In this document: positions 2,195 to 63,252 of the stretch, one piece after another
How the letters are laid out: each line of letters opens with the position of its first letter
Numbering within the stretch: position 1 is the first letter of the stretch
Source: Antedon bifida
Taxonomy: Eukaryota; Echinodermata; Crinoidea; Comatulida; Antedonidae
Reading direction: 5' to 3'
DNA length: 64,000 nucleotides
NCBI GenBank assembly: GCA_963402885.1
Contig: OY727096.1
Location: 1,612,001 to 1,676,000, forward strand
Made by a program: the position numbers and the translations under genes
The notes under the pieces: generated by a model
Databases searched by the model: none
Seen by the model: the letters and a program-made list of their open reading frames with translations, nothing else
Told to the model about the DNA's origin: nothing

Positions 2195-5100
2195 ATGATT
2201 CTTTTAGAAATTAAAAACAAAATCATAGAAGAAGCATTATCTCATAAATTCAAGACGGCAAAGGATGGGTGAGTACCCAATTTTTTAAAATTTTGCTAGG
2301 CTTTTCTGTTGTCTGGTTTGTGCGGGTGACAGAGAGAACGAACAGTCATGTGGGGAGACAGATCAGTGTCCAGGGTAGTCTTCTGCTTCCGTGTACGTTA
2401 TTACTAGGCCTAGATCAATACAAATAACTTAAATGTACATTGATTTCTTAGCAGGATATTTGCCCAATGAATGGAAGTTGGTTTATTCTAAATAATAGCT
2501 AGAGGGCCTAGCTAGGCCTATTTATTTTAATTTTATTTTATTTTTTTTTATTTAATAAAGCAAGCAAGGGCTACACTCAACTTCTTCCAACTGTTGGACT
2601 ATTTAATGTTTTTAACTTGCTACACACCAGTATACCGTTTGAATACTCTCAGCAGTAGTTTGTAAAAGTTCATTTTAAATAAAATTTGCCTAGCCTAAAA
2701 CTAACTTAAAAGTAAAGTAGACAGCTTGAATGAATCAGCAAGAGGAAGTGGATATCCAAGGATTTAATTTCTTGAGATCTAGTCACTTTATGAAAACTAC
2801 TTTTTTAATGCTCGGTATCTTTATTCAATAAAACAATATATATAAATTATATTCTTTACAAAATATAGAATAAGAAATTGAAAAAAAAAAGTACAAAGAT
2901 AAAATCATGGAGTAAAGAATAAGATAAAATATATATCAAAGGTAAAATGTATATATAAAAAAATAGGCTGCAATTGGTGTACACCAATATTTCATTTGTT
3001 TTATGTTTAATTCTATGTTTAATTTTGTTTCAGAGGTAAACCAGAAAGCATTGATATGACAATAGCAGGTAAATGTTCACACCAATGTACATATTCCAAT
3101 AGGCCTAATATTGAATATGAATACAACATACATATTCCTATTAAAATACATAGTGTGTGATGTTTTTATTGTCTGGAGATATTTAAAATGGACTAAATTT
3201 CACAAATTGTAATGCAAAAGATAGGACACCAAATTAAGTTCAGCACTTCAACACTACTTTTAGGCTCTAAATCTGCCACTGATAGAGAGTGTACAGTATG
3301 TATCTATAATGTATGTAATTGTATGTAATTTAGTATACATAGACAATCCTGGTACAGTGAGTGGTGTTGAAAAAAGGCTCATGGAAGCTTAATTTAAGTT
3401 TACTGTAACTATGGATGTATAAAATCATAAATGGTTTGACATGACTTAAGCTCTGTCTAGACTATCAAACTAGTTTGACAAAAAAAGTGTGTTGTGCCCA
3501 AATATGATAGTGATATGACATCATCGTGTCCATATATGGGTACATCACATTTTTTTTTCACATAAAGTTTGATAGTGTAGACAGAGCTTGAGCCGATCTC
3601 CTCCACACACAAATATCCATGAAGTGTGAAAGGCTACAGATAACATTTTTTCTTGTTTTATTCACAGATTTTGATGGTGTTCTTTATCACCTGTATAACC
3701 CAAATGGAGAGAAAAATAAAATCAACCTCAGTATTTCTCTTAAATTTTTTAATGAATTGGCAAAATATGGAGCACAAGAGGTACTTGTTATGGATTATTC
3801 TAATATTAAAAATCCTTTTCAAATAAATATAAGAATGCTAAATCTCTGTCTATACTATCAAACTAATTTGACAACAAAAGTGTGATATTCCCAAATATGG
3901 TAGTGATATGACATCATCATGTCCATATATGTATATACATCACATTTTTATCACATAAAGTTTGATAGTGTAGATAGAGCTTAATAGACCATTTAAAATG
4001 CTGAGTTTTTTTACAAATTTTTACTCGTCTCTAGAATTTTTTGTGAGGAGATATGTAGAGTGCATGCAGGCTTAATTGTAATTTTTCCAGTTAAGTTGAT
4101 TATCTACCAAACAGTTAGTAATAACTGCCAACTTAGCTGGTGAAGTAACTAAGCCTGAATGGGCCAAAAGTGAAATATGAATATAAATTGAACAGTAATA
4201 TTCAAATTTTAGATTTCACTTTTGTGTGGATTTAAAAAAAAAGTGATAGATTAAAATTCATTTTGTTTTGTTTTGACAAAAAGCTTTTAGAGAATATATA
4301 CAAGCAATGGATAACAAGTACAGAAGAAAGCTACAGCTTCACAATACAGTTTGATTTGGAAAATCTTCCAGCAGACACCAGTGATCTCGTCGCTAAAGCT
4401 TCGCTCCTCAAACGTAACTGCTTCTCTGCTGTTTTTGAAAAATACTTTGAATGTCAACAAAAGGAGAAACCAATTGATACGGCTGTTATACATTACAGGG
4501 ATGATGAAACAATGTAAGAATACTTTGATTAAGCTCTGTCCATACTATAAAAAAAATGTAATGTGCCCAAATATGGTAGTGATATGCCCAAATATGGTAG
4601 TGATATGACATCATCATTTCCATATATGGGCACATCACATTTTTTTGTCGCATAAAGTTTTATAGTAGTGTAGACAAAGCTTAACTTTTGAATTACTTGA
4701 TTTTAACTAGTGTGAAACCATGGAAGCTTGCCATTGAATTTTCCAAAAATATGTGGTTGGATTTTATATACTGTATTATGTTAACATATAGTGAATACTA
4801 AATTAAGAAAGATATTACAAACTTTATATTTTGGTTTTATATCAATGTGCATTTAATACATTTGAAGACAAAAAGTTATCTTATTTTAGATAAATATTGA
4901 AAAAGATATGTATTTGCTGCTTATAAGTGTAAACCTCTGTCTACACTATCAAATTTTATGTGACAAAAAATGTGATGTGCCCATATATGCCCACAATGAT
5001 GTCATATCACTGCCATATAAAAATAAATTATAAAATAATATGTGTTTGTTTATTGTGTTTCAAGACTAATGAATGTATTTCATATTTCAGGTATGTGAAT

Positions 5101-7429
5101 GCCAGGAAGGACAGAGTGACAGTGGTGTTTAGTACTGTGTTCAAAGACTCTGTTGACATCATTTTTGGTAAAGTTTTTATGCAGGTAAGCATGTCTTTAC
5201 ACTCTGTCCTGTATCTTCACATTATTGCATTTCATTACCAATATTGTAGGCAAATTCTGTAATACAGTGCCACAGGTGTATCACATATGATATTGTATTG
5301 TGTTAGGTTAGGCTCATGACCTATGATACAGGCATCACATGTGGTACACTGTATTAAACAATTTGCCTTTGACAAATGATAGATACATACAGAGAATCGG
5401 CTAAGCCTTATCAATAGCGTAAACATGTTGATGCACCAAATGTTTAGGAAGAGATTATTATGAAATATATGAAACCAATACTTTTCAGCACATACCCACG
5501 TATTATACTTGTGCTCCATATAAATATAACAAATCAAATAAAACTTTGTTCGTTTAAAGACCAGAAATTGCATGGAAAATTCTTTTCTTTTGACAGAATA
5601 TGCAAATGATATTTGTATTATTATTTTTTGTTATAGGAGTTTAAAGAAGGACGCAAGGCAAGTCAGACAGCACCTCAAGTCTTGTTCAGCCACAAGGACC
5701 CCCCAACTGAACTGAGCAATACAAATGCAGCAACCGGAGAAAATATTGGCTATATTACATTTGGTAAGCGGCCTGCAAAACCACAGAGAGAGACAATGCT
5801 CTACTCTGCATGTAATAATTATGGATCTTCTTCTTCATGTTCCATATCCTACAAGAACGTTGGACGTTACGGATTTCCAAATTCAGTTTTGAGTTCCTTT
5901 GCAATGCTTCTTAAGCTCTGTCTACACTATCAAACTAGTTTGACAAAAAAAGTGTGATGTGCCAAAATATGATATGACAACATCATGTCCATATGGGCAC
6001 ATCAAATATTTTTGTCACATAAAGTTTGATAGTGTAGATGGAGCTTCATAAACATGATTCTCTGCTTTCCTCTGGATTTCTTTCCATCATTCCCTGTTAT
6101 GGGTCGATAAAATGCTACAGCCACTAATGTACCTTGTTATTGTTAATGGCTTCCATGTTCGGCAATAGTTTTATCTATAATAATACGTTACCTATTTTTT
6201 ACAGTGCTTGAATCAAGACATACAAATGCAAAAGTGAGAGAGAACACAATCGACCTGATTCACACATTTAGAACATACTTACACTACCACATCAAGTGCT
6301 CAAAGGTAAAGTACTTACCTAACTGTTAGTCCCAAAATCCTGTTTAATATTTGATAATATAATAAGTTGTATCAGTACTAATGTCAATAGCAACTGAATG
6401 CCTAAAGCTCCATCTACACTATCAAACTTTATGTGACAAAAATATGTGATGTGCCCATATATGGACATGATAATGTCATATTACTACCATATTTGGGCAC
6501 AGCACACTTTTTTTGAGAGAGAGAGTCTTCATTCATTTTATGTAAGAATTCTTCTGTCTCAGTTTTAGTAGATTGTATCATCATTTTTTGTGTTTTTATG
6601 CTTGTTTTCAGGCCTACATACACTCAAGAATGCGCGCACAAACCTCTCAGTTCCTCAAAGTTCTAAACAGAGCACGGCCAGAATCACAGAACAAAGAAAA
6701 GAAGACTATAACGTAAGTACAACTAAACAATAATGTTGAATTAATATAAAATATGGCTTTATAAGACACATATAATTAAGAAATAGCCTGATAGCACACA
6801 AGACTTAAAGATGTATTGTCCCCCTGAAAAATATTTTTTTTCAATTTTTGTTGTTGAATATGCCATTTTAATGCCACATAATAGTTATTGACTTCGACCA
6901 AAAATTGGATCGAAAAAAAAAATTATTTACCTGAAAAAACTGGAATTTAAAGCAAAAAATGGTCAAATTGGCTGCCAGCCAATGGATTTTTAGTTGAATT
7001 TAACCATTTTTCATGTTATTTTATAAGTGAAAACATTATTTTTTCCGATTTTTTTTCTACGGAAGTGATTCACTTGATTAAAACTACAAAATAACCTATT
7101 CAAAGTCTGATTTAATTAATCTTCATTTTTCATGTTTTTGGGGGACAACACATCTTTAAGCTCTGTCTACACTATCAAACTAGTTTAACAAAAAAAAGTG
7201 TGATGTGCCCAAATATGGTAGTGATATGCTTAAATATGGTAGTGATATGCTTAAATATGGAAGTGATATGACATCATAATGTCCATATATGGGCACATCA
7301 CATTTGTTGTCACATATATTTTGATAGTGTAACCATATGTGACTGTATTATTCTGCGATCAATTAAAGCTATGATATTCAAATTCTGTTCTGTTCTGTTT
7401 TCAGTGGACGATCGTTTACCAGAAGTTAA
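2195..7429 (+). CDS. ARPC2: Actin-related protein 2/3 complex subunit 2 (p34-Arc)
   Basis: Coding exons: 2195-2268, 3034-3068, 3668-3780, 4284-4513, 5091-5184, 5637-5763, 6205-6305, 6612-6712, 7405-7429. They join in frame to 900 nt, 299 residues, matching the roughly 300 of animal ARPC2. All introns are GT-AG. The product opens [15 protein letters not shown] and keeps family blocks: [82 protein letters not shown] and a C-terminal [12 protein letters not shown]. With ARPC4 this subunit forms the structural core of the Arp2/3 complex, which contacts the mother actin filament and nucleates branches in the cytoplasm. Exon 3 must begin inside an open stretch at 3668, not at the upstream ATG 3619. 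AATAAA at 7531 and 7552 fit a short 3' UTR. Introns hold at least seven copies of the main MITE. Confidence 0.97.
3449..3588 (+). mobile_element. Main MITE family copy (ARPC2 intron 2)
   Basis: Full-length copy with both TIRs (AGCTCTGTCTAGACTATC and its inverse). Flanked by TTA on the left and TGA on the right, so one TSD base is mutated. Contains a CCATATATGG CArG box; the other site is mutated to CCAAATATGA. Confidence 0.85.
3842..3981 (+). mobile_element. Main MITE family copy with TAA target duplication (ARPC2 intron 3)
   Basis: Full-length copy between TAA at 3839-3841 and TAA at 3982-3984. It sits about 60 bp after the exon 3 donor. Carries CCAAATATGG. Confidence 0.88.
4532..4681 (+). 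mobile_element. Main MITE family copy (ARPC2 intron 4)
   Basis: Full-length copy starting 18 bp after the exon 4 donor. Two tandem CCCAAATATGGTAGTGATATG units inside. Flanks are TTA (left) and TAA (right), which do not match. Confidence 0.85.
4933..5018 (-). mobile_element. Truncated main MITE copy (ARPC2 intron 4)
   Basis: One TIR and about half of the interior, reading TGTCTACACTATC then the complement-orientation interior. The second terminus is missing. Confidence 0.75.
5914..6045 (+). mobile_element. Main MITE family copy (ARPC2 intron 6)
   Basis: Both TIRs present; left flank TTA, right flank TCA. The internal unit is shortened to CCAAAATATGATATG. Confidence 0.85.
6406..6514 (-). mobile_element. 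Truncated main MITE copy (ARPC2 intron 7)
   Basis: One TIR after a TAA flank, then CCATATATGG and the inverted CCAAATATGG. The right TIR is replaced by GAGAGAGAG sequence. Confidence 0.75.
6809..7155. mobile_element. Second TIR family, TTAA-flanked (ARPC2 intron 8)
   Basis: Termini AGATGTATTGTCCCCC and GGGGGACAACACATCT are inverted. Both are flanked by TTAA (6805-6808 and 7156-7159), which could be a piggyBac-type target duplication. The interior is low complexity with CTACGGAAGTG near the right side. Related copies lie at 34911-35000 and 55601-55882. Confidence 0.75.
7159..7331 (+). mobile_element. Main MITE copy abutting the second family (ARPC2 intron 8)
   Basis: The left TIR starts directly at the TTAA that ends the neighbouring element, so one inserted at the edge of the other. 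Three tandem internal 21-bp units. The right TIR stops after TTGATAGTGTA. Confidence 0.82.
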
Positions 7430-7551
7430 ATGCAGTCTTGGTTAACACCATTTTGTTGGAAATCATTTAAAATTGGCAGAAGCACTTATAATCATTTCTT
7501 TTTCCATTTATGGGGAAACTAACTAAAATTAATAAATTTTAAAATTGTGCA

Positions 7552-7557
7552 AATAAA
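7552..7557 (+). terminator. ARPC2 poly(A) signal
   Basis: AATAAA 123 bp after the ARPC2 stop codon; another AATAAA lies at 7531. Either could direct cleavage. Confidence 0.6.
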
Positions 7558-7790
7558 GAAGCAATCTTGCTGATTGTTATCATTTATTTGCTATTGATTT
7601 CACATTTGTTTGTGATTGGTCTGTTTGTTCATAATGTGACCATATTTGGTTATGTTATTCCCATATATAGGCATATTATAGACATGGATTGAATACAATG
7701 TGGCAGAGTCTTTGAATACAAACCCATCATGTGACCAAATATATATTACCTACCACGGTAGACAAAAATAATATATGTATGTACTGGTAG

Positions 7791-7988
7791 CAGTGGCGTA
7801 ATGGCTATGAGCGCTCACTGACTAAACCCACGGGCCCCGGATTGTATGGGGGCTCCTGAGCAGTGCCCAGAGGAAAAAAGACATTAAAATATGTCAAAAA
7901 TGGGTAAAAACTCCCGAGGCATCCAGCGTTGGAGGGCCACTTTGAGTTCCTAAACCAGGGGGCCACAGGTCTCTGCGTTACGCCGCTG
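7791..7988. mobile_element. hAT-like MITE with near-perfect 8-bp TSD
   Basis: Termini CAGTGGCGTAATGG and GTTACGCCGCTG are inverted. The left flank ACTGGTAG (7783-7790) matches the right flank ACTGGTAA (7989-7996) at 7 of 8 positions. 8-bp TSDs and CAGTGG ends fit the hAT superfamily. A related copy lies at 12738-12876. Confidence 0.88.
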
Positions 7989-8714
7989 ACTGGTAACCAA
8001 TCAAAATGTGATGGAATACGGTATTCTTTGTGTGTTTTAGAAATCATAATATTTAACCATCTAAATTGAATCAAAATAATTAAAAATCCCTTGTGCCTGC
8101 CAGACTCTAAAACGCTTCCGTGATGATAAGGATTTTGACGACTGGGTATGTTTTGTTTATCATATAGAATACTTCAGTTATTTCATTTTAACAATTGTTC
8201 TTAAGTAATATCTTTATGTTATGTTTTTTTTAAAGAAATGAGCAGAAGTAAGATCAAAATTGTATTTACTTTATTAAAAGAATTTAACCTTTGGTAATTG
8301 TTTTGCCTAATACAGAATTAAAATGATATATAAATTTGTTTTGTCTTAAAGAATTAATGTAAAAAATATAGCTTAATTACAAAATGTAATTGCAGGATAT
8401 AATCACTTTATAATAATGCAAAAAAAAAAGAATATAATTTAGTAATACCTATTCATACTCAATTTATTTAAAGTTTATTACCAGAAGTACGGCCTTGTAA
8501 ACTTCCAAAACTTACCCAAATCGTAAGGTTAGTTACCTAACTGGACAGTAAGACTAACCATGAGATCAATCTTACTGACCTTCCTAGTTTATATATAAAC
8601 ACTTGTGTCAAATTAATTAATTAAAAACAGTGGTAACATTTGCCAAATTAAGTTGGAAATCTTGAAAAAAAAATTTTTATTCAGTGTGAATCACTTTTCT
8701 GTATAGTTTTCTTT

Positions 8715-8794
8715 CCGGTTCTGTAACATTGTATCCGGTTCTGTAACATTGTATCCGGTTCTGTAACATTGTATCCGGTTCTGTAACATTGTAT
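8715..8794. repeat. 20-bp minisatellite, four copies
   Basis: Four exact copies of CCGGTTCTGTAACATTGTAT in tandem. No link to a gene is visible. Confidence 0.97.
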
Positions 8795-9243
8795 CCTTGT
8801 GTGGTGACCATTTTTATACCATACAGTACTTCTGTTTATGTCACATTACCACTATCTTTTCTAAGATTTATACATCAATCAAGTATTTTGTAGGGTAGAT
8901 AAGTTCTTTGCCTGATAAAGAATTATAATTAATACCGAGTATGTTATGAAATGTTTATTGAACTAGGAATGATTTATATTCTTCATTATTATAAAAACTG
9001 CTTAGTATCATCATTAAATCTAGTATATTTCTATTAAAAAAATGTTTCCTTTATCTGTAAAATCATTCAAATTCAGCGCACTAACAAACTTTTTTTGCAA
9101 AATAAAGTTTGCTTGTGTAGACTTGAGCAAACCAGTTTTCTACAATTTGTTGATGCTTGTCAACCGGTGTCAACCGGTTTACACTAGCAAACTTTGGAAA
9201 CAACTTGTTCTCGTTGTCTTGTATTGATGTGTTGTTTTACTCT

Positions 9244-11553
9244 TTATTCTTTTGCACATTTTGGGATTGGATTAAATGTCTCGAAAAGCCTATCGGTTAT
9301 AAAACTCGGAAAGTACTGCAACGGTTGCCAAACTAGTTTAGCATCAATGCCTGGTGCGTAGCGATTGTACGGCCATCGTGCAAAGAGGGCGTGCTGTATG
9401 TCGTCGGTAACGTAGTGCAAACGTGGAGAACAAAGCAACTTCATCGCATCTTCAACTTTATTCGAATCTGAAAATAACAGAAATTTTTTTTAAAAATAAA
9501 TTTGGGTAGAATGTTGTGATGTCTTCAGTACCATATTTGAGCACATCACCCGTTTTTTGTCAAACTAATTGAATAGTGTAGACAGAGCTTTACCACAAAC
9601 GGTTGCTTGGTAAGTATGGTACAGTTTTGATTTTCTTTAGCATAGGAAATTTTAAAAGACCAGAATGGCTGGTTTTTAACCTTTCATTTTGTGAAATAAC
9701 AAAAGATCTCTTACACTCTTCTACGTAATCTGGCCCATACGCCTCCTTTTCTTCTGTGCTTAATCTATCCCACGCTTTCTTCATAGACGGTAAAATGTTC
9801 CTTTTGGCATCAGCTACAAATGTGCGGAAGTAACCTGGCTCAATTATGTGAATGGATACTCCATGCTTCTTCAAGGTAATTCTGCAATAAACAAAACATT
9901 TACAAGAGTCAGTTTTAATTGTACATAAGCTCTGTCTATACCATCAAACAAAGAAAGTGTGATGTACCAAATATGGTAGTGATAGGACATCATCATGTCC
10001 ATATATGGGCACATCACATTTTTTTCATCAAAATTGTTTTTGTTCAAAGAAGCACATGTAGTGTCTGTATGTTAATGTATATTATAAAGACTCATTCGTA
10101 TTTATAGGGATTTTTGACTTCTAATGAATGGTGATATCTATAAATTTTATATTTTATTTTCTAAATAGATATGACTTAACTTTTATGAAACTGTAAATGT
10201 GCACTGCAATGCAGTAGGTCAAAAGGTTAAATTACTGTCTTAAGCTCTGTCTACACTATCGAAACTATTGACAAAAAAAGTGATGTACCCATGTAAGGAC
10301 ATGTCATACCACTACCATATTTGGGCATATCACTACCATATTTTGGCACATCACATTTTTTTGTCAAACTAGTTTTATAGTGTGGACAGAGCTTTAGAAA
10401 ATGGCACATCATCATTGAGGGTTTCTTACCGCAAACCATCTGAGAACGCCATTAGTCCGAGTTTTGCGATTCCATATCCACCACTTGGAATAGGATTGAT
10501 TCCTAAGCTACTACACATATTGACGACCCGACCTTTGGCCTTTTTAACGAGTGGTAGAAACGTGTTTGTTACGTCTATAGCACCAAGCAGGTGAACGTCA
10601 AACACATTTTGTAGCTCTTCCTTCGTCCACCAATCATACATGCCAACAAGTCCTGTTATTCCAGCATTGTTAACCAACCCCCATAAACCTTTTAAAAAAG
10701 GGGATTTTTAGAATTGTTAGTGGAATGAGTGTGTTTGTAACTGCTAAAGTTCTGTCTACATTATCAAACTAGTTTGACCAAAACAATGTGACAGTGCCCA
10801 AATATGGTAGTGATATTCCAAAATATGGTAGTGATATGACATCATCATGTCCATATATGGGCACATCACATTGTTTTGTCACATAAAGTTTGACAAAATT
10901 ATTAATAACATGTATGTATAAACATATACGTGATACTATAGGACTTCTTTTTAAAACGAGTAAGAATTTAAAAATTCATTATCAAGTTGTAGGTAAATGG
11001 GCTTTAATTGTCTATCTTTGATTTACACTTTAGTTTATTTGATGTACAGTAGAACTCTTATTAAGGGACCCGAGAAATAGGGGTTGTCCCCTGCATAGAG
11101 GTTGGTTGTGTAGTGTTGATAAATATTGCGGCTTGGCCCTCGTTCATTTTATGGTCAGAAAGTGTCCCCTTAATAGCAGTGTCCTGAAAGAGGAGGCTAC
11201 TAGAGACTTTAATCCAAGCTTGTAGAGTACCTTTATGAGCTGGAAGGATTTGTTTTACTTCATCATATGCCTTTAAAACACTGTCATGCTTTCTAACATC
11301 AAGCTGAATACAATGCAACCTCTCTGATGTATCCGCGTTTAATTTCTGCATGCCATCTTCGGTGAAACACATAGCAAACACATGGCATTCTTGTTTATCA
11401 AGCGCTCGTGCTAATTTATTTCCAAATCCTGTGTCACATCCAGTTATCAGCACATACTTTCCGCGTCTTGCGATGAAAAACTGATTACGAAGCCAATAGA
11501 TTGTGTAAAGTGTACAAAATGCTATACAAGCACAAGCAGTCCAATATATCACT
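9244..11553 (-). CDS. Short-chain dehydrogenase, retinol/17beta-hydroxysteroid dehydrogenase type (5' end open)
   Basis: Coding exons, 5' to 3': 11553-11231, 10688-10430, 9881-9715, 9467-9244, joined in frame to about 323 residues, the usual size for this family. An N-terminal hydrophobic stretch (about residues 3-21) suggests a membrane anchor, probably ER. The classical SDR signature is intact: TGCDTGFG (about 37-44) for the dinucleotide, NNAG (114-117), MCSSLG serines (about 167) and the YGIAK catalytic pair (Y179, K183). The C-terminal IQHALFARWPYNRYAPG block resembles RDH/HSD17B6/DHRS9-like enzymes, which oxidise or reduce retinoids or steroids with NAD(P). The substrate cannot be read. 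No in-frame ATG precedes the open stretch; GCCAACAG at its edge looks like a splice acceptor, so the start codon probably lies in an unseen exon between 11560 and about 13500. Introns hold MITE copies. Confidence 0.9.
9516..9589 (-). mobile_element. Partial main MITE copy (dehydrogenase intron 3)
   Basis: Right half only, ending GTAGACAGAGCT followed by TTA. The left TIR is lost. Confidence 0.75.
9928..10032 (+). mobile_element. Truncated main MITE copy (dehydrogenase intron 2)
   Basis: Left TIR AGCTCTGTCTATACCATC and the whole interior, with both CArG-like sites, but the right TIR is missing. Confidence 0.78.
10243..10393 (-). mobile_element. Main MITE copy with TTA duplication (dehydrogenase intron 2)
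   Basis: Both TIRs, flanked by TTA at 10240-10242 and 10394-10396. The element ends about 35 bp from the exon 2 donor. Two internal units in the minus orientation. Confidence 0.88.
10748..10893 (+). mobile_element. Main MITE copy, right end lost (dehydrogenase intron 1)
   Basis: Left TIR after TAA, two internal units, CCATATATGG, then a truncated right TIR ending AAAGTTTGACAAAA. Confidence 0.8.
11047..11202. mobile_element. Possible degenerate TA-flanked DNA transposon remnant
   Basis: The left end reads TA then CAGTAGAACTCTTATTAAGG; the interior has GTCCCC motifs on both strands and the right end reads GAGGCTACTAG. This resembles Tc1/pogo-type non-autonomous elements, but the inverted ends match poorly. 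A related stretch may lie at about 33566-33640. Confidence 0.35.
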
Positions 11554-25288: not shown

Positions 25289-25360
25289 AGCTTTGTCTAC
25301 ACTATCAAACTCACACTTTTTTTTGGCAAACTAGTTTGATACAGTAGTGTAGACAGAACT
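25289..25360. mobile_element. Internally deleted main MITE copy, TTA duplication
   Basis: Only the two TIR regions remain (72 bp), flanked by TTA at 25286-25288 and 25361-25363. Confidence 0.85.
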
Positions 25361-26848: not shown

Positions 26849-27002
26849 AGCTCTGTCTATCTAAAGTAGTTTGACAAAAAAATGTGATGTGCCCAAATAT
26901 GGTAGTGATATGCTTAAATATGGTAGTGATATGACATCATCATGTCCATATATGGGCACATCACATTTTTTGTCAAACTAGTTGGATAGTGTGGACAGAG
27001 CT
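26849..27002 (+). mobile_element. Main MITE copy
   Basis: Both TIRs, the left one partly decayed (AGCTCTGTCTATCTAAAG). Two internal units; right flank TTA, left flank TGT. Confidence 0.85.
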
Positions 27003-27302: not shown

Positions 27303-27481
27303 ATCTCTGTCTACACTATCAAATTTTATGTGACAAAAAATGTTATGTACCCAAATATGGTAGTGATATCCCCAAATATGGTAGTGATATCCCCAAATAT
27401 GGTAGTGATATGACATCATTATATTTATATATGGTGACATTTTTTTGTCACATAAAGTTTCATAACTGTGTAGACAGAGCT
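27303..27481 (+). mobile_element. Main MITE copy with TAA duplication and three internal units
   Basis: Flanked by TAA at 27300-27302 and 27482-27484. Three consecutive CCCAAATATGGTAGTGATAT units. Confidence 0.88.
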
Positions 27482-31631: not shown

Positions 31632-31748
31632 AACCAGGGGTGCATTAGTACAACCAGGGGTGTATTAGTACAACCAGGGGTGCATTAGTACAACCAGGGA
31701 TGCATTAGTACGACTAGGGGTGCATTAGTACAACCAGGGGTGTGTTAG
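31632..31748. repeat. 20-bp minisatellite, six copies
   Basis: Six tandem units like AACCAGGGGTGCATTAGTAC, with single-base differences; the last unit reads GTGTTAG. Confidence 0.95.
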
Positions 31749-34246: not shown

Positions 34247-34274
34247 TTGAAGATTTAAAACCTTATAACACAAG

Positions 34275-39220: not shown

Positions 39221-39332
39221 AGCTCTATCTACACTATCAAACTAGTTTGACAAAAAAGGTGTGATATGCCCAAAATTGGTAGTAATATGACATCATTTTT
39301 ATACATGGGCACATACATTTTTTGTCAGAGCT
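39221..39332 (+). mobile_element. Main MITE copy with TTA duplication, shortened right arm
   Basis: Flanked by TTA at 39218-39220 and 39333-39335. The right TIR is cut to GTCAGAGCT, so the arm was internally deleted. Confidence 0.83.
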
Positions 39333-40382: not shown

Positions 40383-47663
<7,281 letters not shown>

Positions 47664-47857: not shown

Positions 47858-51194
<3,337 letters not shown>

Positions 51195-51599: not shown

Positions 51600-53232
51600 T
51601 TATTTTGGTTACTTTGACGCTATGAGATGATGGAAAAAAAAAATGGCAAAATTTCGACCCTTTTATTTTTCAACAAAACTAGTTACTATGGCTCTATAAG
51701 ATGATACAAAACAATATATAGATACATTATCGCATAATAATTGAATTTTAAAAAGGTGATATTTTGGGCATTTTTCGAAAAAATGGCAACATTTCGACCC
51801 TTTTATTTTTCGACAAAACTAGTTACTATGGCTCTATAAAATGATACAAAGCAATATATAGCCATATTATCGCATAAATATTGAATTTTAAAAAGGTGAT
51901 ATTTTGGGCAATTTTCGAAAAAATCCCTGTACTATAGTATAGGGATTTTTTGAAAAAATGGCAAAATTTCGACCCTTTTATTTTTCGACAAAACTAGTTA
52001 CTATGACTCTATAAGATGATATAAAGCAATATATAGCCATATTATCGCATAAAAATTGAATTTTAAAAAGGTGATATTTTGGGCATTTTTCGAAAAAATC
52101 CCTGTACTATAGTACAGGGATTTTTTCCAAAAATGGCAAAATTTCGACCCTTTTATTTTTCGACAAAACTAGTTACTATGGCTCTATAAGATGATATAAA
52201 GCAATATATAGCCATATTATCGCATAAATATTGAATTTTAAAAAGGTGATATTTTGGGCATTTTTCGAAAAAATCCCTGTACTATAGTATAGGGATTTTT
52301 TGAAAAAATGGCAAAATTTCGACCCTTTTATTTTTCGACAAAACTAGTTACTATGACTCTATAAGATGATATAAAGCAATATATAGCCATATTATCGCAT
52401 AAAAATTGAATTTTAAAAAGGTGATATTTTGGGCATTTTTCGAAAAAATCCCAAAATTTCGACCCTTTTATTTTTCGACAAAACTAGTTACTATGGCTCT
52501 ATAAAATGATATAAAGCAATATATAGCCATATTATCGCATAATAATTGAATTTTAAAAAGGTGATATTTTGGTCATTTTTCGAAAAAATCCCTGTACTAT
52601 AGTACAGGGATTTTTTCCAAAAAATGGCAAAATTTCGACCCTTTTAGTTTTCAACAAAACTAGTTACTATGGCTCTATGAGATGATACAAAACAATATAT
52701 AGATACATTATCGCATAATAATTGAATTTTAAAAAGGTGATATTTTGGGCATTTTTCGAAAAAATCCCTGTACTATAGTACAGGGATTTTTTCCAAAAAA
52801 TGGCAAAATTTCGACCCTTTTATTTTTCGACAAAACTAGTTACTATGGCTCTATAAAATGATACAAAGCAATATATAGCCATATTATCGCATAATAATTG
52901 AATTTTAAAAAGGTGATATTTTGGGCATTTTTCGAAAAAATCCCTGTACTGTAGTATAGGGATTTTTTGAAAAAATGGCAAAATTTCGACCCTTTTATTT
53001 TTCGACAAAACTAGTTACTATGACTCTATAAGATGATATAAAGCAATATATAGCCATATTATCGCATAAAAATTGAATTTTAAAAAGGTCATATTTTGGG
53101 CATTTTTCGAAAAAATCCCTGTACTATAGTACAGGATTTTTTCGAAAAATGGCAAAATTTCGACCCTTTAATTTTTCGACAAAACTAGTTACTATGGCTC
53201 TATAAAATGATACAAAGCAATATATAGCCATT
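51600..53232. repeat. Satellite array, about 175-bp unit, about ten units
   Basis: Each unit runs ATGGCAAAATTTCGACCCTT, ACAAAACTAGTTACTATG, an ATGATATAAAGCAATATATA block, ATTGAATTTTAAAAAGGTGA and GGGCATTTTTCGAAAAAATC. Unit starts fall near 51643, 51784, 51958, 52133, 52311, 52449, 52625, 52800, 52975 and 53149. Seven junctions hold the palindrome CCCTGTACTATAGTACAGGG or a close variant; the two short units lack it. Adjacent units are near-identical. Confidence 0.96.
52092..52127. repeat. Perfect 36-bp palindrome inside a satellite unit
   Basis: The core CCCTGTACTATAGTACAGGG extends to GAAAAAAT on the left and ATTTTTTC on the right without a mismatch. Identical copies lie at 52582-52617 and 52758-52793. 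Confidence 0.95.
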
Positions 53233-53492: not shown

Positions 53493-56187
53493 TCATTCTA
53501 ACACTTGGGCAAGCTCTTCCACCGCCTTCCTTGATCCGGGGGAAGTCCCCAGATAAGCATTACACGTCATTCGCATGTGTTCGCGGTTGATTTCGTGCAG
53601 TTCTTTAAGTTTAAATAATTCCATTCGGCTCCAATCTTGTTTTGTTCTCGTGTAATCTTTCTGTTTACGCTCATGAGCGTTGCTGCTGTACTTAGTTCCA
53701 AGCTCACTCCTAATTTATTGAAATGATTTTGAATAAAGATAAAAGTAAGTATAATAAAAAATAGTAAAGCCCCTACTTTTGGACACCCCTATAAATTATT
53801 CCTGTGTTACAAATAAGAGGAAATATATAATACACCTATTCAGTATACACACCACTAAAGGGTCTTTCACACCTGTTCTGGCACGGTTACAGTCTGGCGC
53901 CGGCAAATTCAACGTGCTTTGTTTTCACACAGCTATGCGCACATTGATTGGTGCATAGCCGTTTAAAACGAAACATGTACGTTCAATTTGATTTGCCGGC
54001 TCTGGATTGGAACCGTGCCGGAACAGGTGTGAAAGACCCGTAATTAAGAGCTTTGTTCGGTTCCCACAGTGTCTCTTCTACAATATAACTCCAAAACAAT
54101 ATCTAAATAGAGTACTGTAAACTTGAATGACTTTATTATACACAACAGTATGTAATATGCTTACCTGAGAGAAGGAACGTCTCCCCAGTTTAATTCCGTG
54201 TTATTTGCCACAGGTCGTTTGATGGAAACAACCGGCCACTTTGGAAGACGTGTACTGCCCTCCTTCTTATCACTGCTTCTTGTCAACACGCTACAAAAAT
54301 AATTACCTGAAGTTCAGTCTACAGTAGTCAGGGTTCTCCCCCAAATGATGTTTATAATCATGCGTTTATTTGAGGAAATAAATAAAGGTCCTGGGGCGTT
54401 TATTCAAGGGGAGTGATGTTCTATGAGAGGGAGGGTGGGTGGCGTTTATTTGAATAAATACGGTAATACTCTAATCCTATCCCAAGTCACATTAAAAATA
54501 AACTTACATTTTCTTAATGTCTGGTCTTGTGGGACATGGAACTGATGCAGGAACTGGGTCTACCACTCTGAAAAGAAAAACACCAAATTATTACAATTTT
54601 AAAAAGGACAAAAGTATATTGTTATTAAAGTAGAAACCATTAGCATCCCATAATGTTTGATAGTGTAGACAGAGCTTTACACATGAGTTGACTTACATGT
54701 CCATTGAATGCGAGACTTCTGGATCAACAAGGCCTATTGCCGTCTTTCTTGTGATATACCCATGTCGCACTGCAGGAGGCTAAATGTAATTGCAGAAATA
54801 GTATTAATTACTGTAAACATTTTAAACCAGCAAAGAATGTTAAATTGCTACTGAGTAATGAACCCTAGGCTTACAAGGGTTCTCTCTCTTACCATGTCAG
54901 CCATGTACTGCATCAGATATGTATTGTAATAAGGTTCCAAACTACTCCAGATAAAGGGTGAATATGGCTTACTGAAAAACATAATAACATCAAATTAATG
55001 TCTTTTTGTTCATCTCATAAAAAAACAAAAACAAACAAAAAAAAACAATACACTTAACAAAAAGGAGTGAAAGAAATTTAAAACAATATTTACAATTCTG
55101 GTTTCATAATTTTGGTAGACTCTCTTTCCAGACTTGTTTTCAACCTTTTCATTTCGGCTAAGAATTGTTGCTCCATCTTCTTATCTCTTGGTGAATTTTG
55201 AGCTGAATCTAGGAAAGCAAAGCAAATCTTTCTTAATCTCTGTCTACACTATCAAACTTTATGCAACAAAAAAACAATGTGATGTGCCCATATATGGACA
55301 TGATGATGTCATATCACTACCATATTTGGGCATATCACTACCATATTTGGGCATATTTGATTCACATACAATATTTAAAAAATGTATTGTAACAAATTGT
55401 TTGCTTTCTGAAAATCTAAACATTCTAAGATCGTCCCAAGTTACTGTATGTAGTATTATTTTATTATTAAAATATTATTTTGAATGTGTACCATCATTTT
55501 TTTCACTTGGTGCTGCTGGTTCCTGTGTTGGTTCCTCCGTTTCCCCTTCAGTTGATTGCACCTAAAATAATTAAAATAAAATATTAATTATTAATTAATA
55601 TAAAATTCACAATTCCCTGAAAATGAATATGCCATTTTAATGTAGTTATTCACTTTGACCAGGAACTGGAAAAAAAAAATTATTTATCTGAAAAAACTGT
55701 AATTTTTAAATTTAAAAAGCAATAAATGGTCAAATTGACAGGCCAGGTTTATTTTGTAAAAGTAAAAATATATTATTTTTACTTTTTTTCTACGGAAGTG
55801 TATTAAAATATAAAATGACCTATTCAAAGTTTTTTTTTTAAATAATCTTCATTTTTCATGTTTTTTGGGGGACAATACATTTTTAATTAATAGATAAAAT
55901 ATTCATTGCATATAAATATTTGTTTTTCATGCCTATAACTCCAATCCTGGTGGGAGGCCTACAACAAAAACAGCAGGCCCACTAGAACAGTAAGTAAGCT
56001 GTTTTCAGCCTCAGTTAGGTGCAGTAAACACCACCATACCCACTACGTATTGTAACAAACAAGGCCTAACAATGCAATACCGTGTAACAAACACAGTACC
56101 CACAACTTAGTTTGTATTTAGGCCTAGTTAACACTTAAAACTGGGACTAAAATCGATACTTACCTGCTCATTTTCTTCACTGGACAT
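53493..56187 (-). CDS. Conserved-looking 257-residue protein, function unknown (possible ciliary protein)
   Basis: Exons, 5' to 3': 56187-56164, 55561-55492, 55208-55094, 54971-54893, 54779-54697, 54567-54508, 54290-54165, 53709-53493. All have GT-AG borders and join in frame to 774 nt, 257 residues. The start ATG encodes MSSEENEQ; an acidic Glu/Pro/Thr-rich N-terminus (1-32) is followed by a short coiled segment (about 40-65), an aromatic stretch (PYSPFIWSSLEPYYNTYLMQ), then RHGYITRKTAIGLVDPEVSH, LPKWPVVSIKRPV and a basic C-terminus ending SRMELFKLKELHEINREHMR and TSPGSRKAVEELAQ. I do not recognise the family with certainty; the compact Pro/Tyr-rich style recalls small axonemal or sperm microtubule-associated proteins. 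An X-box-like motif lies 154 bp upstream. No signal peptide or membrane segment. Confidence 0.85.
53859..54040. mobile_element. TAA-flanked TIR element, PIF/Harbinger-like
   Basis: Inverted ends AGGGTCTTTCACACCTGTTC and GAACAGGTGTGAAAGACCCG continue inward to GGCACGGTT / AACCGTGCC, about 29 bp. TAA flanks both ends (53856-53858, 54041-54043). Lies in the last intron of the 257-residue gene. Less AT-rich than its surroundings. Confidence 0.88.
54330..54475. repeat. Repeat with GGCGTTTATT motifs
   Basis: CGTTTATTTGAGG, GGGGCGTTTATTCAAGGGG and GGCGTTTATTTGAATAAATA occur within 120 bp; the last folds into an AT hairpin. Probably a fragment of a dispersed repeat; class unknown. Confidence 0.4.
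54650..54676. mobile_element. Main MITE right-terminal fragment
   Basis: Only TAATGTTTGATAGTGTAGAC and AGAGCT remain, followed by TTA. Confidence 0.7.
55236..55357 (-). mobile_element. Main MITE copy, right end lost
   Basis: Left TIR ATCTCTGTCTACACTATC, CCATATATGG, then two inverted CCAAATATGG units. Lies in intron 2 of the 257-residue gene. Confidence 0.8.
55601..55882. mobile_element. Second TIR family, diverged copy
   Basis: Parallel to 6809-7155 over TTCCCTGAAAATGAATATGC, TTATTTATCTGAAAAAACTG, CTACGGAAGTG and a right end TTTTTGGGGGACAATACATT followed by TTAA. Confidence 0.7.
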
Positions 56188-56340
56188 CTCGTACAGTCGT
56201 GTCCGATGCTAAGCATACACAGCCGACTTTAATTGGGTCTCAAAAGTGTTTTAATAAATATTTGTTACACCTTTTTTTAAGTAACAAACACAGTACGATT
56301 CTTACCACCATAACAACACAAGCATGTGGACTCCACAACA

Positions 56341-56353
56341 ATTCCCTAGCAAC
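56341..56353 (-). promoter_or_regulatory. Candidate RFX X-box upstream of the 257-residue gene
   Basis: On the minus strand GTTGCTAGGGAAT matches RYYNYY-N-RRNRAC at all but the last position. It lies 154 bp upstream of the ATG, within the usual distance for ciliary X-boxes. Confidence 0.45.
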
Positions 56354-57253: not shown

Positions 57254-57419
57254 AGCTCTGTCTACACTATCAAACTTTATGTGACAAAGAAAATGTGATG
57301 TGCTCATATTTTTTAATGTTCCCATATATGGACACGATGATGTCATATCACTACCATTTTTGGGCATATCACTACCATATTTGGGCACATCAAACTATTT
57401 TGATAGTGTGGACAGATCT
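57254..57419 (-). mobile_element. Main MITE copy with TAA duplication
   Basis: Flanked by TAA at 57251-57253 and 57420-57422. Two inverted internal units, one with CCATTTTTGG. Confidence 0.88.
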
Positions 57420-57583
57420 TAAGAAACAAAGGGATGATAACTAATAATGAGGAGCATATTTTTTTTCTCCTCTTAAACTTTACAATATGAATAAATATAA
57501 TTATAACCTTATATTTGCTTACAAAGAAAAGTAACACTTTTTTGGTGGGATTAAAAAAACAACTAGATGAATATAATATCTAA

Positions 57584-57729
57584 AGCTCTGTCTACACTAT
57601 CAAAAAAGTGTGATGTGCCGAAATATGGTAGTGATATGCTCAAATGCTAGTGATATGACATCATCATGTCCATAGATGGGCACATCATATTTTTTTGTCG
57701 CATAAAGTTTGATAGTGTGGGACAGAGCT
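57584..57729 (+). mobile_element. Main MITE copy with TAA duplication
   Basis: Flanked by TAA at 57581-57583 and 57730-57732. Only about 160 bp from the previous copy and in the opposite orientation. Confidence 0.88.
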
Positions 57730-58966
57730 TAACAATAGTATATAACACTATAATAACTATAATCTTATATTCTGCTGTATATCATTGATATGACAATGCA
57801 CCCCATATGATTATGAAGTATTTATGCGGATCAAAAATAGAAAAAATTCACATTTCTTGGAAATTAATTGAAACCTATTAATACATTCTCTATTAAGATG
57901 CAGTTTGCCATGGCAACTAAATGCGCTAAATGCATCAATTGTGAAATGAAGGTTGAGCTGTTTTCTTTACTCAAAAAGGTAATTAATAGAATTCTCAACA
58001 GTAATTTGACAATGCAGCAATAACAACCAAGGTCCACACACAGAGTCCACAACTCGACATTTCGATTTTTGTTCTCAAGTAGTATACATATGAAACGCCA
58101 TATATGCCAAAATATTTATGTAGCATATAAACCAGTACAGTATGCTAGTCTTCCTTAAAAAGATTCTCAGTACTGTATCTAGATTCAGCAATTATATCTA
58201 GGCAAATTCAGTGATACAGCAAAACATGTGTTTTTCCATACTATTTTTTGCCACATACAGTACAGTGACACAGTATTTATTTAACAAATTCTTGATAAAT
58301 TGGTCATATGTGACATGCACTGTTAGACCTATCATAGCATTTCCCTAGATACTGTATACACATATTATGCCATCTGCCTAGATACAGTACAGAAAATATT
58401 AAAACACGAGTGGTTTCCAATTACAGTATTACACCACTGTAACCAAGGTGTAGTAGAATATACGTTCCTATTGAATCATGTCTAAATATTACCATAGAGG
58501 TTATAAAAGATTCCACATAGAGGTTATAAAAAAACTCCATATTACCATAGAGAAATCCTCATAATTCAACTAATATATAAATAATAATAAACCCAAATTA
58601 TACAAACTATAACTCAAATATAGCTATACTTAAATCTATCTAGCAAACTCAAACGCTCTTCAATCGTCAATCAAGGTATTATACTTTTCATATTTTAAAT
58701 TGAAGATTTGTTTAGTGATGTTTTATTGTGTATTTAGGAAACAATTGAAAAATAACCCGATATTTATATGTAATGGAATCAATTTGTGGATGATTACTAT
58801 GTATTTAGAATACAATAAATATACAATTGGTTTGAAACATACGTTATAGGTTTGATACTGAAACCATCTGTAAAGTTTGAATTTTTTAATTTTTTTTATT
58901 GAAAACAACAAAAGGCACGGCATATTATAATAATTTACACATGACAGTAAACACACAAGAAATTAA

Positions 58967-59082
58967 GAAAAAGTGTGAATATGCGCAAATATGGTAGTAA
59001 TATACCCAAATATGGTAGTGATATGACATCATTGTGTCCATATATAGGCACATCACATATTGTTGTCACATAAAGCTTAATA
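58967..59082 (+). mobile_element. Main MITE interior, both TIRs decayed
   Basis: Two internal units and the right arm to TCACATAAAGCTTAATAG; the terminal parts are gone. Confidence 0.72.
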
Positions 59083-61110
59083 GGGGGCACATATGAATAA
59101 TGCGTAATGAAGAAATGGACATAGATCAAATAGGTTATGTCATGTTCTTTGGCCAAATGGTATATGTTTTAGCTTGTAATAGTAGCCTTATAATTATTGT
59201 ATAAATGATGTGATAATTTATTAAGTATGGTAATATATGTATAAAGGATGTATGTTAAGAAATATAAAAGTAAATAAATGAAAGGTAAAGCAAAGGATAA
59301 CATACACACAAGACTGATAAAAAGAAAACAAAATAAAATGAAAACAAAATTCAAACACAGCAAACATTTAAACAAAAAGATATACACATGTGAACATGTA
59401 ATTATTTTACATTTTAAATTACGATAGCCATAGTGTTTAACCATAGTGTTATAAAACCATTAACATTACGTGTTATACATATTATGTAGAGTGTTTTATA
59501 TGTGTACTAGTGTCACATCATTAGATGACGCATAAACACCACTTTGTCGTTTAATGTATTTTAAGTACGTCATTAGCGTGCTAAATATAAACAGCACGTC
59601 CGTGGAGGTGTAGAGTACGTGCTTGAATATTAAGCAAATACATCTTTACTTAGGAGGACATATTTGTTATATTTAATTTAATAAATAAATATTAATCATT
59701 TTGTATGTTGACATAATTATTGTTGTATGTATTTGAATACTATTAAGGACCATGTCAAAGTTATTTTATTGCAGTTACTGCAGTAACCACTCCTCTTTTT
59801 TTACTCAACTTCTTTATGCAATGTATTTAGCAAACCCTTTTTGTGTGATCATACACACTGTTTATTTTAGTTAACACCTCATAATCTTTGAGATTTAAAT
59901 AAACTAAAATAACACATTATTATTGTTATATATTACTGCAGTATCTGCAGTAGAATAAATTTGACATAATCCCTTGCATTCATTCCAGATAAAGTAATGA
60001 AATGCAGGGACATAATATGGAATTGGGCATTGTATCCACATGTATACACCCAATGTAATTATGAATAAAACCATCACCAAATTTTACCTCAAAATATTAT
60101 GATACAATTAGTTTCATTCCATTATGTATAATTGTATATTTATAACATATTCATAATTAATGTTTACACTGATTGACTAAAGGTGTTGGGAAAAAAAGTG
60201 TGAAAACAAAACTATTAGAAAAAAAAAAATTTTTTTATTATTTTTTTTTTATGTTTAAGAATTAAGATAATTTTACAACTAAAAAAAATTTATGCCGAAA
60301 AAATACCGTATATTTATAATTTTTTAAATTTTAATATTTAATGAATGCTATTGTATTTGATTGTCTTAAAATTCATATTTTAGATTTTAAAATAATAGAT
60401 TAAATACTTATAGTATTTCCCTGATTAAATTCAATTCAACACACTTTGATTACTGAACAATTGATTTTAGGATCAAAATAAAAAGCATTACTTGAGAGCT
60501 TTGGATGACCTAGTATGACCTTTGACTTATGAGGTCATGTAGGTACAATTAGTTTAATGTCACGTCGTCAGACCTAACCTGGTCGTATTTTAGGGCCATG
60601 CGATGACATTGGATTCTCTCATCACACACATTTTAATAATTTTTGGGTGCATGTTTGTCGTGTAAAAATCAAATTTTTTAGAAACTGGAAAACGACTAAA
60701 TGCATAATTTAAGTCATACGTCATCATAAATGGACTGTTTTTAATCTACATCATCAATACGCATTATTGTGGTTGTTTGTTTACTTTGATACCTGAACCA
60801 TCCTAAATAAGGAGCATCTACTATTAATATTTTATCTCTACACTGAATACCTTTTTGTAGTAACTGGGAATTTTACTTACAGTAAAGCGGCAACATAAAT
60901 AATTTTTTTTTTCTTCATATAAATTTTGCAACATCAACTTTTATTTTGTTATCCCCGCCGCCGACAGAATATACAATTTACTACACAATCAATTCTCATT
61001 AAATAAATGTTTGATTTACAACTATTATCTACAAATATAGCTAAAATAGCGAGTTAATTACATAATAACATTATATATCTTGACATTATCATAAATAAAA
61101 AAATGTACAT

Positions 61111-62408
61111 TTATAAATCAGTAGACATCAGTTTCTGTTTTGGTGCGATTGTTAAAATATGGTTTGTTGGTTTGTCGTTTTCAACTTCGGTCATACTTGA
61201 GATCGGTTCTTGCACGTACGTTTTGTGATTGGTGCTCGCTGAATTCGTCGAGTCAACAGAATTACTACGCAGTTTGTCCACGGGAGAGATCACGCCGGTA
61301 GATAGCTTATCTTCGTTCCCGGTAGTGATGTCACCGACCACGATCGAGCCGCACTCCGACGGTGTCTCGCAATCGGCTATGTTCCCACTCAATTCCGAAT
61401 GGATCGAATCATTTATGCTATCGTTATCGTGGTATGACGTCTCCGTGACGTGGTCACTGATCTTAACAGTATTTTTCTTACTGCTTCTGGATCTACCTTT
61501 ACTTTTCTTTATTGCCCCAACTCTGTCCCCTGCTCCTACTCGGTCCCCTTTGTGTGGTTCCCACGGGTTGAGTCCATTTTGGCCAACGTCTACGTTACTG
61601 CTTCCTCCACTGGAATGTCGTGACTTGGTGATTCTATCAACCACCTCAGCGTGCATGTCAAATGGGCCGTGGACAATTGATGAAATGTTAGTTATACCTA
61701 TGACAAAATAATTTAATTTATGATATTTTTAACATACTGGAATTGATAAGAAATATCAATCATTAAATTTGAAAACACATCATTCAAAAAGAAAAATGGG
61801 AAGTTAAGCATCATTATGAGGTACAAGGTACTGTATGATATTTAAACCTATGTATGCCAGGACTTGAACATAAATAGAATTGAAATCTAAACACTTCAAC
61901 CCCTAGGATAAAGTCCCACTACTATTAATAATAAGAGAAAATAACATTTTACTCTATATAGTACTTGACTATTATTATAAGCTATTTTGATGTACCAGCA
62001 TGAAATATTTCTTTAAATTTATATTAATTAAGTAACTATAATTTCAAAAATAGCTAAGTTATACAGCTTCAAATGATGAGGTACTGTAGAAGACGTGAAT
62101 TGAAGTGAATTCAATGAAAAACAATTACTTCTCTGCACTATAAACTATAAATACGTAAGCAACAAAAACTAAAAAAGTGATTATCAAATTGAAAAATAAT
62201 TAGCAATGACGACATTGAAAACAAATTATGTATTACATAATGAAAGGGAAACAAAGTGTATGTAGAAATAAAGAATATCAATTAACCTTTTTCTTCGCTA
62301 ATTGATCCTGCCATGGCGGTCATACTTGCGTTGTCAGGTAGGTTTAACGACGTACTCTCACTGCTCACGCTGCATCGCTTACTGCTCACTTCAAAGTGTA
62401 CATCCAAC
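61111..62408 (-). CDS. C-terminal two exons of an unidentified gene (5' end outside window)
   Basis: Exons 62408-62287 and 61697-61111. The first starts after TTTTGCAG and ends before GTTAAT; the second follows GTCATAG; both fit one frame, giving about 235 residues to the stop TAA at 61113-61111. The upstream exon encodes VHFEVSSKRCSVSSESTSLN and ASMTAMAGSISEEKG. The last exon encodes NISSIVHGPFDMHAEVVDRI, a basic KKSKGRSRSSKK patch, a direct repeat GDRVGAGDRVGA, then a Ser/Asp/Thr-rich tail. Codons here are less AT-biased than the surrounding DNA, which supports real coding. No domain is recognised; it reads like a disordered cytoplasmic or regulatory tail of a larger protein. Further exons must lie right of 62408, and I found none before the window ends. 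Confidence 0.8.
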
Positions 62409-62672
62409 CTGCAAAATAAAAATTAAAATAAATAAAATTTATAAATTAAATTTGTTTTTATACAGTACAAATTCAATTCAATTATTATATTCCATCAAGC
62501 ACTCTGGCTTAAAAATTGCTTGTCACGTATATAAAAACATTAAAAATATGATAAAATGTGTAAAATACAGTGTATTTTGTATTTATGTATTTTGCTTAAG
62601 CTGCCATGCCCAGCATTTTTCGTTTTTTTATATAATTGTATTGTAGTATTAAAAATTGTGGAGTGAGAGTAA

Positions 62673-62801
62673 ATCTCTGTTTACACTATCAAGCCAGTAG
62701 TGATATTCCAAAATATGGTAGTGCTATGACATCATCATATCCATGTATATGGGCACATCACATGTTTTTGTCACATAACGTTTGACAGTGTAGACAGAGC
62801 T
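62673..62801 (+). mobile_element. Main MITE copy
   Basis: Left TIR after TAA, right TIR followed by TTG. The centre is shortened; CCATGTATATGG replaces the CArG box. Confidence 0.83.
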
Positions 62802-62973
62802 TTGAAAGAGTGAAAAAGAGAGGGAGTGAACAATTGAATAGAACAAAAAAATTGTGAAAAATATGGATGGCATAAAATGATGGGAAAGTGTGAGGCATTA
62901 GATGATACAGATATAAAATTCATATCAAAAACTAAACGATTGTTTTTAGCGTCACAAACCCATCCTATTCTTA

Positions 62974-63155
62974 AGCTTTGTCTGCACTATCAAATTTTAT
63001 GTGAGAAAAAAATGTGATGTGCCCATATATGGACATGATGTCATATCACTTACTACTATATTTGGGTATATCACTACCATATTTGGGTATATCACTACAA
63101 TATTGGGCACATCACATGTTTTTTGTCACACTAGTTTAATAGTGTAGACAGTGAT
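62974..63155 (-). mobile_element. Main MITE copy with TTA duplication and three internal units
   Basis: Flanked by TTA at 62971-62973 and 63156-63158. CCATATATGG then three inverted units. Right end mutated to GTGAT. Confidence 0.88.
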
Positions 63156-63218
63156 TTAGGTTGTTCCACAGGAGGAAAGTATTCCTTTAATTAGAATAGT
63201 GGTTTCCTCAAGTTTTGT

Positions 63219-63252
63219 TTGTCACATAAAATTTGATAATGTAGACAGAGCT
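63219..63252. mobile_element. Main MITE right-terminal fragment
   Basis: TTTGTCACATAAAATTTGAT then GTAGACAGAGCT and TTA; the rest is missing. Confidence 0.72.

Follow-up and report, generated by a model that had tools for sequence, protein, structure and literature searches.

An abundant MITE family, most probably of PIF/Harbinger type, with an unequal middle base in the TWA flanks of a third of its sampled copies

What kind of element has strewn short, hairpin-forming copies over a 64-kb stretch of the Antedon bifida genome, and do the two flanks of each copy record a duplicated target? The window (the whole stretch of 64,000 nucleotides analysed here) had been described in a first-pass annotation as dominated by a MITE family with about 28 copies. 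This is a fair count: blastn with a family consensus gives 29 merged places in the window, together covering 4209 bp or 6.6% of the 64 kb, and one of these places is itself an array of several tandem copies. No consensus match falls in either of the two stretches that had been called free of copies, 10.9–25.3 and 27.5–39.2 kb. The 18-bp TIR, AGCTCTGTCTACACTATC, has 49 matches at ≤3 mismatches in the window, with 0.03 expected from shuffles. Genome-wide (315.6 Mb) there are 37,529 TIR ends at ≤2 mismatches, 18,908 forward and 18,621 reverse, and the reversed pattern, used as a control, gives 0 forward and 2 reverse matches; at this threshold TIR density in the window is 5.6 times the genome average. 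The family is real and abundant. Its copies in the window are as follows.

3449..3588, plus strand: MITE copy of 140 bp, flanks TTA/TGA, a single 21-bp unit
3842..3981, plus strand: MITE copy, flanks TAA/TAA
4532..4681, plus strand: MITE copy with two 21-bp units, discordant flanks TTA/TAA
4933..5018, minus strand: MITE copy without far end
5914..6045, plus strand: MITE copy, flanks TTA/TCA, past the ARPC2-like exon near 5.6–5.8 kb
6406..6515, minus strand: MITE copy without far end
7159..7331, plus strand: MITE copy at the end of a GGGGGACAATACATCTTTAA-family repeat, right TIR decayed
9517..9589, no strand given: MITE fragment, single end
9928..10039, plus strand: MITE copy without right end
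10243..10393, minus strand: MITE copy, flanks TTA/TTA, adjoining the SDR exon 10429–10707
10748..10893, plus strand: MITE copy without right end
25289..25360, no strand given: short 72-bp derivative, flanks TTA/TTA
26849..27002, plus strand: MITE copy, left TIR decayed
27303..27481, no strand given: MITE copy, flanks TAA/TAA, both ends of B type, three 21-bp units
39221..39327, plus strand: MITE copy, right end truncated, flanks TTA and TTA
43735..44543, minus strand: tandem array of 3.5 units with a period of 228 bp, in which full MITE copies alternate with partial ones, flanks AAA/TTA (43735)
45847..45989, plus strand: MITE copy without right end
46461..46565, no strand given: MITE copy, discordant flanks TAA/TTA
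49356..49472, plus strand: MITE copy without left end
50896..51104, plus strand: MITE copy, flanks TTA/TTA, containing six 21-bp units; the RPL11 exon at about 50105–50356 is close by
54646..54676, no strand given: solitary MITE end
55236..55356, minus strand: MITE copy without far end
57254..57419, minus strand: MITE copy, flanks TAA/TAA
57584..57729, plus strand: MITE copy, flanks TAA/TAA, 1-bp insertion in right TIR
58968..59083, no strand given: MITE interior without TIRs
62673..62801, plus strand: MITE copy, flanks TAA/TTG
62974..63155, minus strand: MITE copy, flanks TTA/TTA
63214..63252, no strand given: solitary MITE end

A copy with one 21-bp unit (CCCAAATATGGTAGTGATATG) is about 140 bp long, and longer copies grow by 21-bp steps; window copies with two recognised ends span 72–209 bp. 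When 98 fetched copies were scored against consensus sequences of one to four units only, the best fit had one unit in 36, two in 54, three in 6 and four in 2. Just inside the TIR the two arms differ, with AAACTAGTTTGAC on what we call the A side and AAACTTTATGTGAC on the B side, and 58 two-ended copies divide into 31 AB, 2 AA and 3 BB, with one end unclear in 22. Whole copies fold into a long hairpin, as the first-pass annotation had it: in 54 copies of at least 100 bp, four of them from the tandem array, the median folding energy is −60 kcal/mol, and relative to mononucleotide shuffles the median z is −9.8. MITEs are described as short and non-coding, with TIRs of about 14–50 bp and high copy number (PMC10741241, excerpt); this family is short, non-coding and present in high copy number, and its 18-bp TIR lies inside a longer hairpin.

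The copies are of similar, considerable age. The 82-bp right half has 233 genomic matches, 39 perfect and 194 with one mismatch, and this 194:39 ratio corresponds to a Poisson mean of 5.0 per 82 bp, that is 6.1% divergence, under a model that ignores rate variation among sites. Direct alignment of 65 copies from C1 gives a median divergence of 5.6%. These values point to a single old wave of amplification, now about 6% diverged, with no recent activity.

The window array at 43735–44543 is a short satellite whose 228-bp units each hold one full and one partial copy that share TTA junctions. Tail-to-head pairs of copies across a single TWA (≤2 mismatches) occur at 47 places in the genome, three of them in this array. 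Other repeats share the window. A second family, with ends GGGGGACAATACATCTTTAA, occupies 6805–7159 and 55867–55886 and is also present in L032, L041, L043, L045, L048, L052, L053 and L103; the MITE at 7159 abuts its TTTAA end exactly. A satellite of about 1.6 kb lies at 51638–53231 with periods of 140 and 175 bp, and short tandem arrays of 20-bp units lie at 8714–8796 (4.2 copies) and 31632–31742 (5.6 copies).

Protein matches place ARPC2-like exons near 4.3–4.5 and 5.6–5.8 kb, SDR exons on the minus strand at 10.4–11.6 kb and an RPL11 exon at 50.1 kb; from our reading of the sequence, a further ARPC2-like exon probably lies near 5.1 kb. In all three genes checked, ARPC2-like, SDR and RPL11, copies sit between or beside exons. 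Outside the window, contig C27 carries a COX1 with six in-frame TGA codons, which suits an animal mitochondrion without proving one. The claim that some copies lie under 60 bp from a splice donor agrees with the copy at 4532, whose TIR starts 19 bp past the last base of an ARPC2-like exon, which we read as 4513.

The case for a TWA duplication had been built on copies flanked by TTA/TTA and others flanked by TAA/TAA. In unoriented copies this contrast proves nothing, because the two are equal when read from opposite strands. We oriented copies by their asymmetric interior before comparing flanks, and both kinds persist. Reading each end inward, we call it L when TAA|AGCTC stands there and S when TTA|AGCTC does; one L and one S are then what any true 3-bp TWA duplication yields. 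Among 163 ends, 83 are L, 55 are S and 25 are other, so that TWA is present in 138 of 163, and the L/S counts are 39/19 at A-type and 32/25 at B-type ends. Since TAA and TTA occur at both subterminal end types, a fixed asymmetric base is excluded, and we reject an asymmetric TIR bordered by a TA duplication. In 152 ends, position −4 is C in 47% (background 16%) and position −5 is T in 47% (background 34%); as this preference is present at both ends, the target is roughly T-C-TWA-G-A. Of the same 152 ends, 95% have A or T as their middle base (C 1%, G 4%), and where an end reads NTA, N is T in 55 of 61 cases (ATA 3, CTA 2, GTA 1).

Exact 3-bp identity of the two flanks was found in 26 of 55 copies, with 17.3 expected from re-paired flanks. 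Matches of 1 bp (4 vs 4.0 expected) and 2 bp (5 vs 7.6) do not rise above this null, and none is longer than 3 bp. Tabulating flanks, as the first-pass annotation had proposed, thus favours a 3-bp duplication, although the middle base differs in 28 of 83 copies. Two fetched samples contain 206 ends, 170 with TWA, 26 that differ from it at a single base and 10 that differ at two or three, the last being in excess of what scattered point mutation would suggest. In the window itself, all nine matching pairs of flanks quoted earlier are readable, that at 57584 only with a 1-bp insertion and that at 39221 beside a truncated right end, and six other two-ended copies mismatch: 3449 (TTA/TGA), 4532 (TTA/TAA), 5914 (TTA/TCA), 46461 (TAA/TTA), 62673 (TAA/TTG) and 43735 (AAA/TTA). 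The evidence supports the MITE status of the family, its TWA flanks and a 3-bp duplication in excess of chance. Joining the two flanks of a copy, we made 58 queries for unoccupied sites bearing one TWA and ran them on the window plus 0.3 Mb of fetched sequence; none gave a usable hit, the 41 junction-spanning matches all coming from three tandem-array copies, and a repeat-flank search for empty sites yielded no usable repeat flank.

How far do the flanks agree within a copy? We assembled 83 copies with TWA on both sides from three samples. The C1 sample comprises 100 listed places on the plus strand with a perfect left TIR, and it skips stretches of C1; 30 have no recognised right end, and 17 of the remaining 70 were dropped for a non-TWA flank. 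Of 39 copies sampled genome-wide, 6 have no recognised left end, and 13 of the other 33 were likewise dropped. Window copies were taken with two TIRs at ≤4 mismatches, which leaves out 39221 and 57584; the array was counted once and 3 non-TWA copies were dropped. Outside the 83, then, stand 33 further copies with a non-TWA flank.

The agreement that had been reported as the mark of the family holds in 55 of the 83 (LS) and fails in 28, which divide into 23 LL (TAA...TTA) and 5 SS (TTA...TAA). Independent ends would give 39.5 LS, 30.7 LL and 12.7 SS (p 0.0004), and the excess of LS means that the two ends are linked, as duplication requires. Discordance is also lopsided: LL exceeds SS by 23:5 (p 0.0009). 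C1 contributes most of this excess (18:2), and in the two remaining samples, both small, the split is 4:2 and 1:1. Exact ends counted over the whole genome number 8077 L and 5030 S, a ratio of 1.61 (p 2e-157) where strict duplication predicts 1. Twelve copies with both ends perfect, from C1 below 3.26 Mb, where we took the matches as complete, comprise 7 LS, 5 LL and 0 SS; this set partly overlaps the first C1 sample. Divergence is 5.7% in LL (16 copies) and 5.5% in LS (32 copies; p 1.0), a comparison whose power is limited by the similar ages, and the −4 context is alike in the two classes. In a third of sampled copies the middle base is unequal, which goes beyond plain 3-bp duplication and mutation. 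A search that demanded identical TSDs would lose about one in three real copies of such a family.

Which superfamily do such flanks indicate? Most probably PIF/Harbinger, as the first-pass annotation had proposed: MITE structure, TWA and 3-bp duplication all speak for it, while within-copy agreement fails in 28 of 83 copies and a Harbinger with the same TIR was not found at 53 of at least 150 places (see below). TWA duplication distinguishes PIF/Harbinger from the other PHIS groups (PMC4482050, excerpt), and an extended 9-bp insertion preference is described for PIF and mPing (PMC2836001, excerpt); here too a preference extends beyond the TSD, with C at −4 and T at −5. We consider it very probable that this is a Tourist-like MITE family amplified in one old wave, in trans, by a PIF/Harbinger-type transposase, whose involvement and identity we infer. 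A Harbinger transposase would have moved the MITE in trans, cutting C-TWA-G-like targets with a 3-nt stagger and so duplicating TWA. The family resembles mPing and other Tourist-like MITEs in being small and non-coding, with a 3-bp TWA duplication and an extended insertion preference (PMC2836001, PMC4561436, excerpts); it differs in its own TIR, its expandable 21-bp unit and the unequal middle base in one third of sampled copies. The TIR string AGCTCTGTCTACACTATC was not found in the literature searched. In kind it is an ordinary family, one more abundant Tourist-like MITE.

A pogo/Fot MITE of the IS630-Tc1-mariner group, with a TA or TAA duplication and a DDE_1 transposase, is an improbable alternative. 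Fot elements do have TAA or TA duplications, Fot-like ones also TAAA (PMC7386202, excerpt), and DDE_1 transposases are present at 49 places in the genome. Against this reading, 3-bp matches exceed the null and exact 2-bp matches do not, either T or A can stand in the middle whichever the end type, the target as a whole is similar to the extended preference of PIF and mPing, and L195, the one of the 49 DDE_1 loci that was read (1.5 kb each side), lacks such a TIR. It is highly improbable that the element duplicates TA and has AAGCTCTGTC as its true TIR, TAA...TTA copies being canonical (CTAG target) and the others damaged or of a different stagger: the genome-wide surplus of TAA-reading over TTA-reading ends and the 23:5 surplus of TAA...TTA over TTA...TAA copies would suit it, but a bare TA duplication predicts neither the T in 55 of 61 NTA ends nor concordant TWA pairs above independence (55 vs 39.5). 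The TAA...TTA subset alone would fit a 2-bp TA duplication; a Tc1/mariner duplication of TA is nevertheless rejected for the family, on the 2-bp matches and the same NTA ends. NuwaII, another PHIS group, is similar in that C and G flank its target, C|TNA|G (PMC4482050, excerpt), but it permits any middle base and is rejected on the 95% A or T found here; the duplications given in the same excerpt for ISL2EU (AT), Spy (none), NuwaI (CWG) and Pangu (ANT) do not match TWA flanks.

How might a PIF/Harbinger-type insertion leave unequal middle bases? The leading explanation, unproven, is carry-over of donor flanks. In mPing, a staggered cut through the TSDs has been proposed, leaving 5′ overhangs derived from them (Gilbert et al. 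2015, PMC4561436, excerpt), from which we infer that, on excision, 3 nt of the old flank stay attached to both 5′ ends of the element. At insertion, the donor's 3-nt 5′ overhangs would anneal to the TWA gap of the new target, and the middle base of the new "duplication" would sometimes be inherited from the old site. That such carry-over sets some of the middle bases here is a tentative proposal, and on our analysis a rather unlikely one. A simple steady-state calculation with unbiased resolution yields 2/3 concordant copies, and 55 of 83 (66%) were observed. The TAA excess would need biased retention, 0.54 for an A overhang and 0.28 for a T overhang; with two parameters fitted to two free proportions, this is not a test. 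T:T pairing is better tolerated in mPing excision repair (PMC4561436, excerpt), so the direction of the bias seen here is not predicted. If carry-over is true, the genome records "target" duplications that are partly donor-derived, whereas TSDs, the usual label of a superfamily, are assumed to be copied from the target alone.

Discordance could instead postdate insertion, if copies recombined or underwent gene conversion with one another or if the hairpin served as template for repair between the ends of a single copy; this competes with donor carry-over and not with the family assignment, and we regard it as possible, if doubtful. The very many similar copies and the strong hairpin speak for it, and the 10 of 206 ends that depart from TWA at two or three bases may point to rearrangement of some ends. 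Recombination, however, predicts TAA...TTA and TTA...TAA copies in equal number, where we find 23:5, and the divergence of discordant copies does not exceed that of concordant copies, within the limited power of that comparison. Homogenisation of the arms is at odds with their sequences, since A and B stay distinct in the two-ended copies.

For LL copies, the main alternative to carry-over is a variable stagger of 2 or 3 nt. One-base slippage (TTA+A) as the source of TAA...TTA is not favoured, T standing at −4 in 9 of 46 such ends and in 10 of 54 concordant TAA ends; among 28 C1 two-TWA copies with ≤1 error in the right TIR, T stands at −4 in 7 of 9 TAA...TTA copies, and slippage may explain some of them. 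Point mutation is rejected at about 6% divergence: 28 discordant copies in 83 have P 2.5e-16 at an assumed rate of 5%. A literature search on mismatched Harbinger TSDs returned only the mPing work and two general works on other transposons, and the effect may be reported elsewhere. Thousands of copies with a biased middle-base mismatch are a natural data set on PIF/Harbinger cutting and sealing.

Does the genome hold a parent element? DDE_Tnp_4 has at least 150 scored places, of which we inspected 53 distinct ones, drawn from the 30 best (1.5 kb each side) and 24 stretches of 4.4–5 kb; 29 of the 53 were covered to only 1.5 kb each side. Outside this count we also scanned L153 and L154, each 0.7 kb of sequence next to one more DDE_Tnp_4 place; L194 was unused. 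No transposase enclosed by the TIR AGCTCTGTCTACACTATC was found at these 53 of at least 150 places; at L114, one of them, a MITE copy of the usual kind lies close by. A full-length Harbinger carrying the MITE's own TIR, which the first-pass annotation had suggested looking for, was thus not met with there, and an element with a partly similar TIR was.

This element, L042, is a two-ORF Harbinger of 3865 bp at C1:13358568-13362432 (local 669-4533 within G000:C1:13357900-13362899), with a TTA/TTA duplication, perfect TIRs AGGCAGGCATACACAGTC, and ORFs matching DDE_Tnp_4 (1.7e-34) and MADF (3.8e-9). Its TIR and that of the MITE both start with AG, have TACAC at matching offsets and agree at 10 of 18 positions; by chance, 27 of 8276 TWA-preceded 18-mers in the window match as well, or 9 of 450 of those starting with AG. 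It differs from the non-coding MITE in its length and coding capacity and in number: a whole-genome search for the L042 TIR at ≤1 mismatch, with TWA required so that ends with other flanks were mostly missed, gives 21 ends, against 13,107 exact TWA-preceded MITE ends. The two end types stand at 10:11 for L042 and 1.6:1 for the MITE. The 21 ends form 9 two-ended places, from 71 bp to 12.5 kb long, of which 8 are LS and 1 is LL, the discordant one (C12:18722382-18726235, TSDs included) having TAA...TTA flanks. Concordance in 8 of 9 is not significantly different from the 55:28 of the MITE (p 0.26). L042 speaks for TWA as the duplication of a real Harbinger in this genome. It has short relatives elsewhere, of 616 bp and 71 bp.

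In two other DDE_Tnp_4 groups (L022-L028 and L034-L037), several copies have CAG/CTG before GGGCGGATT at one end and in this resemble NuwaI, as defined by CWG (PMC4482050, excerpt). Within 0.7 Mb at G000:C8:21.52-22.20 Mb lie 16 DDE_Tnp_4 frames with near-equal scores and one TAA stop each (L009-L012, L014-L020, L029-L031, L033 and one more place); this cluster is an amplified dead transposase.
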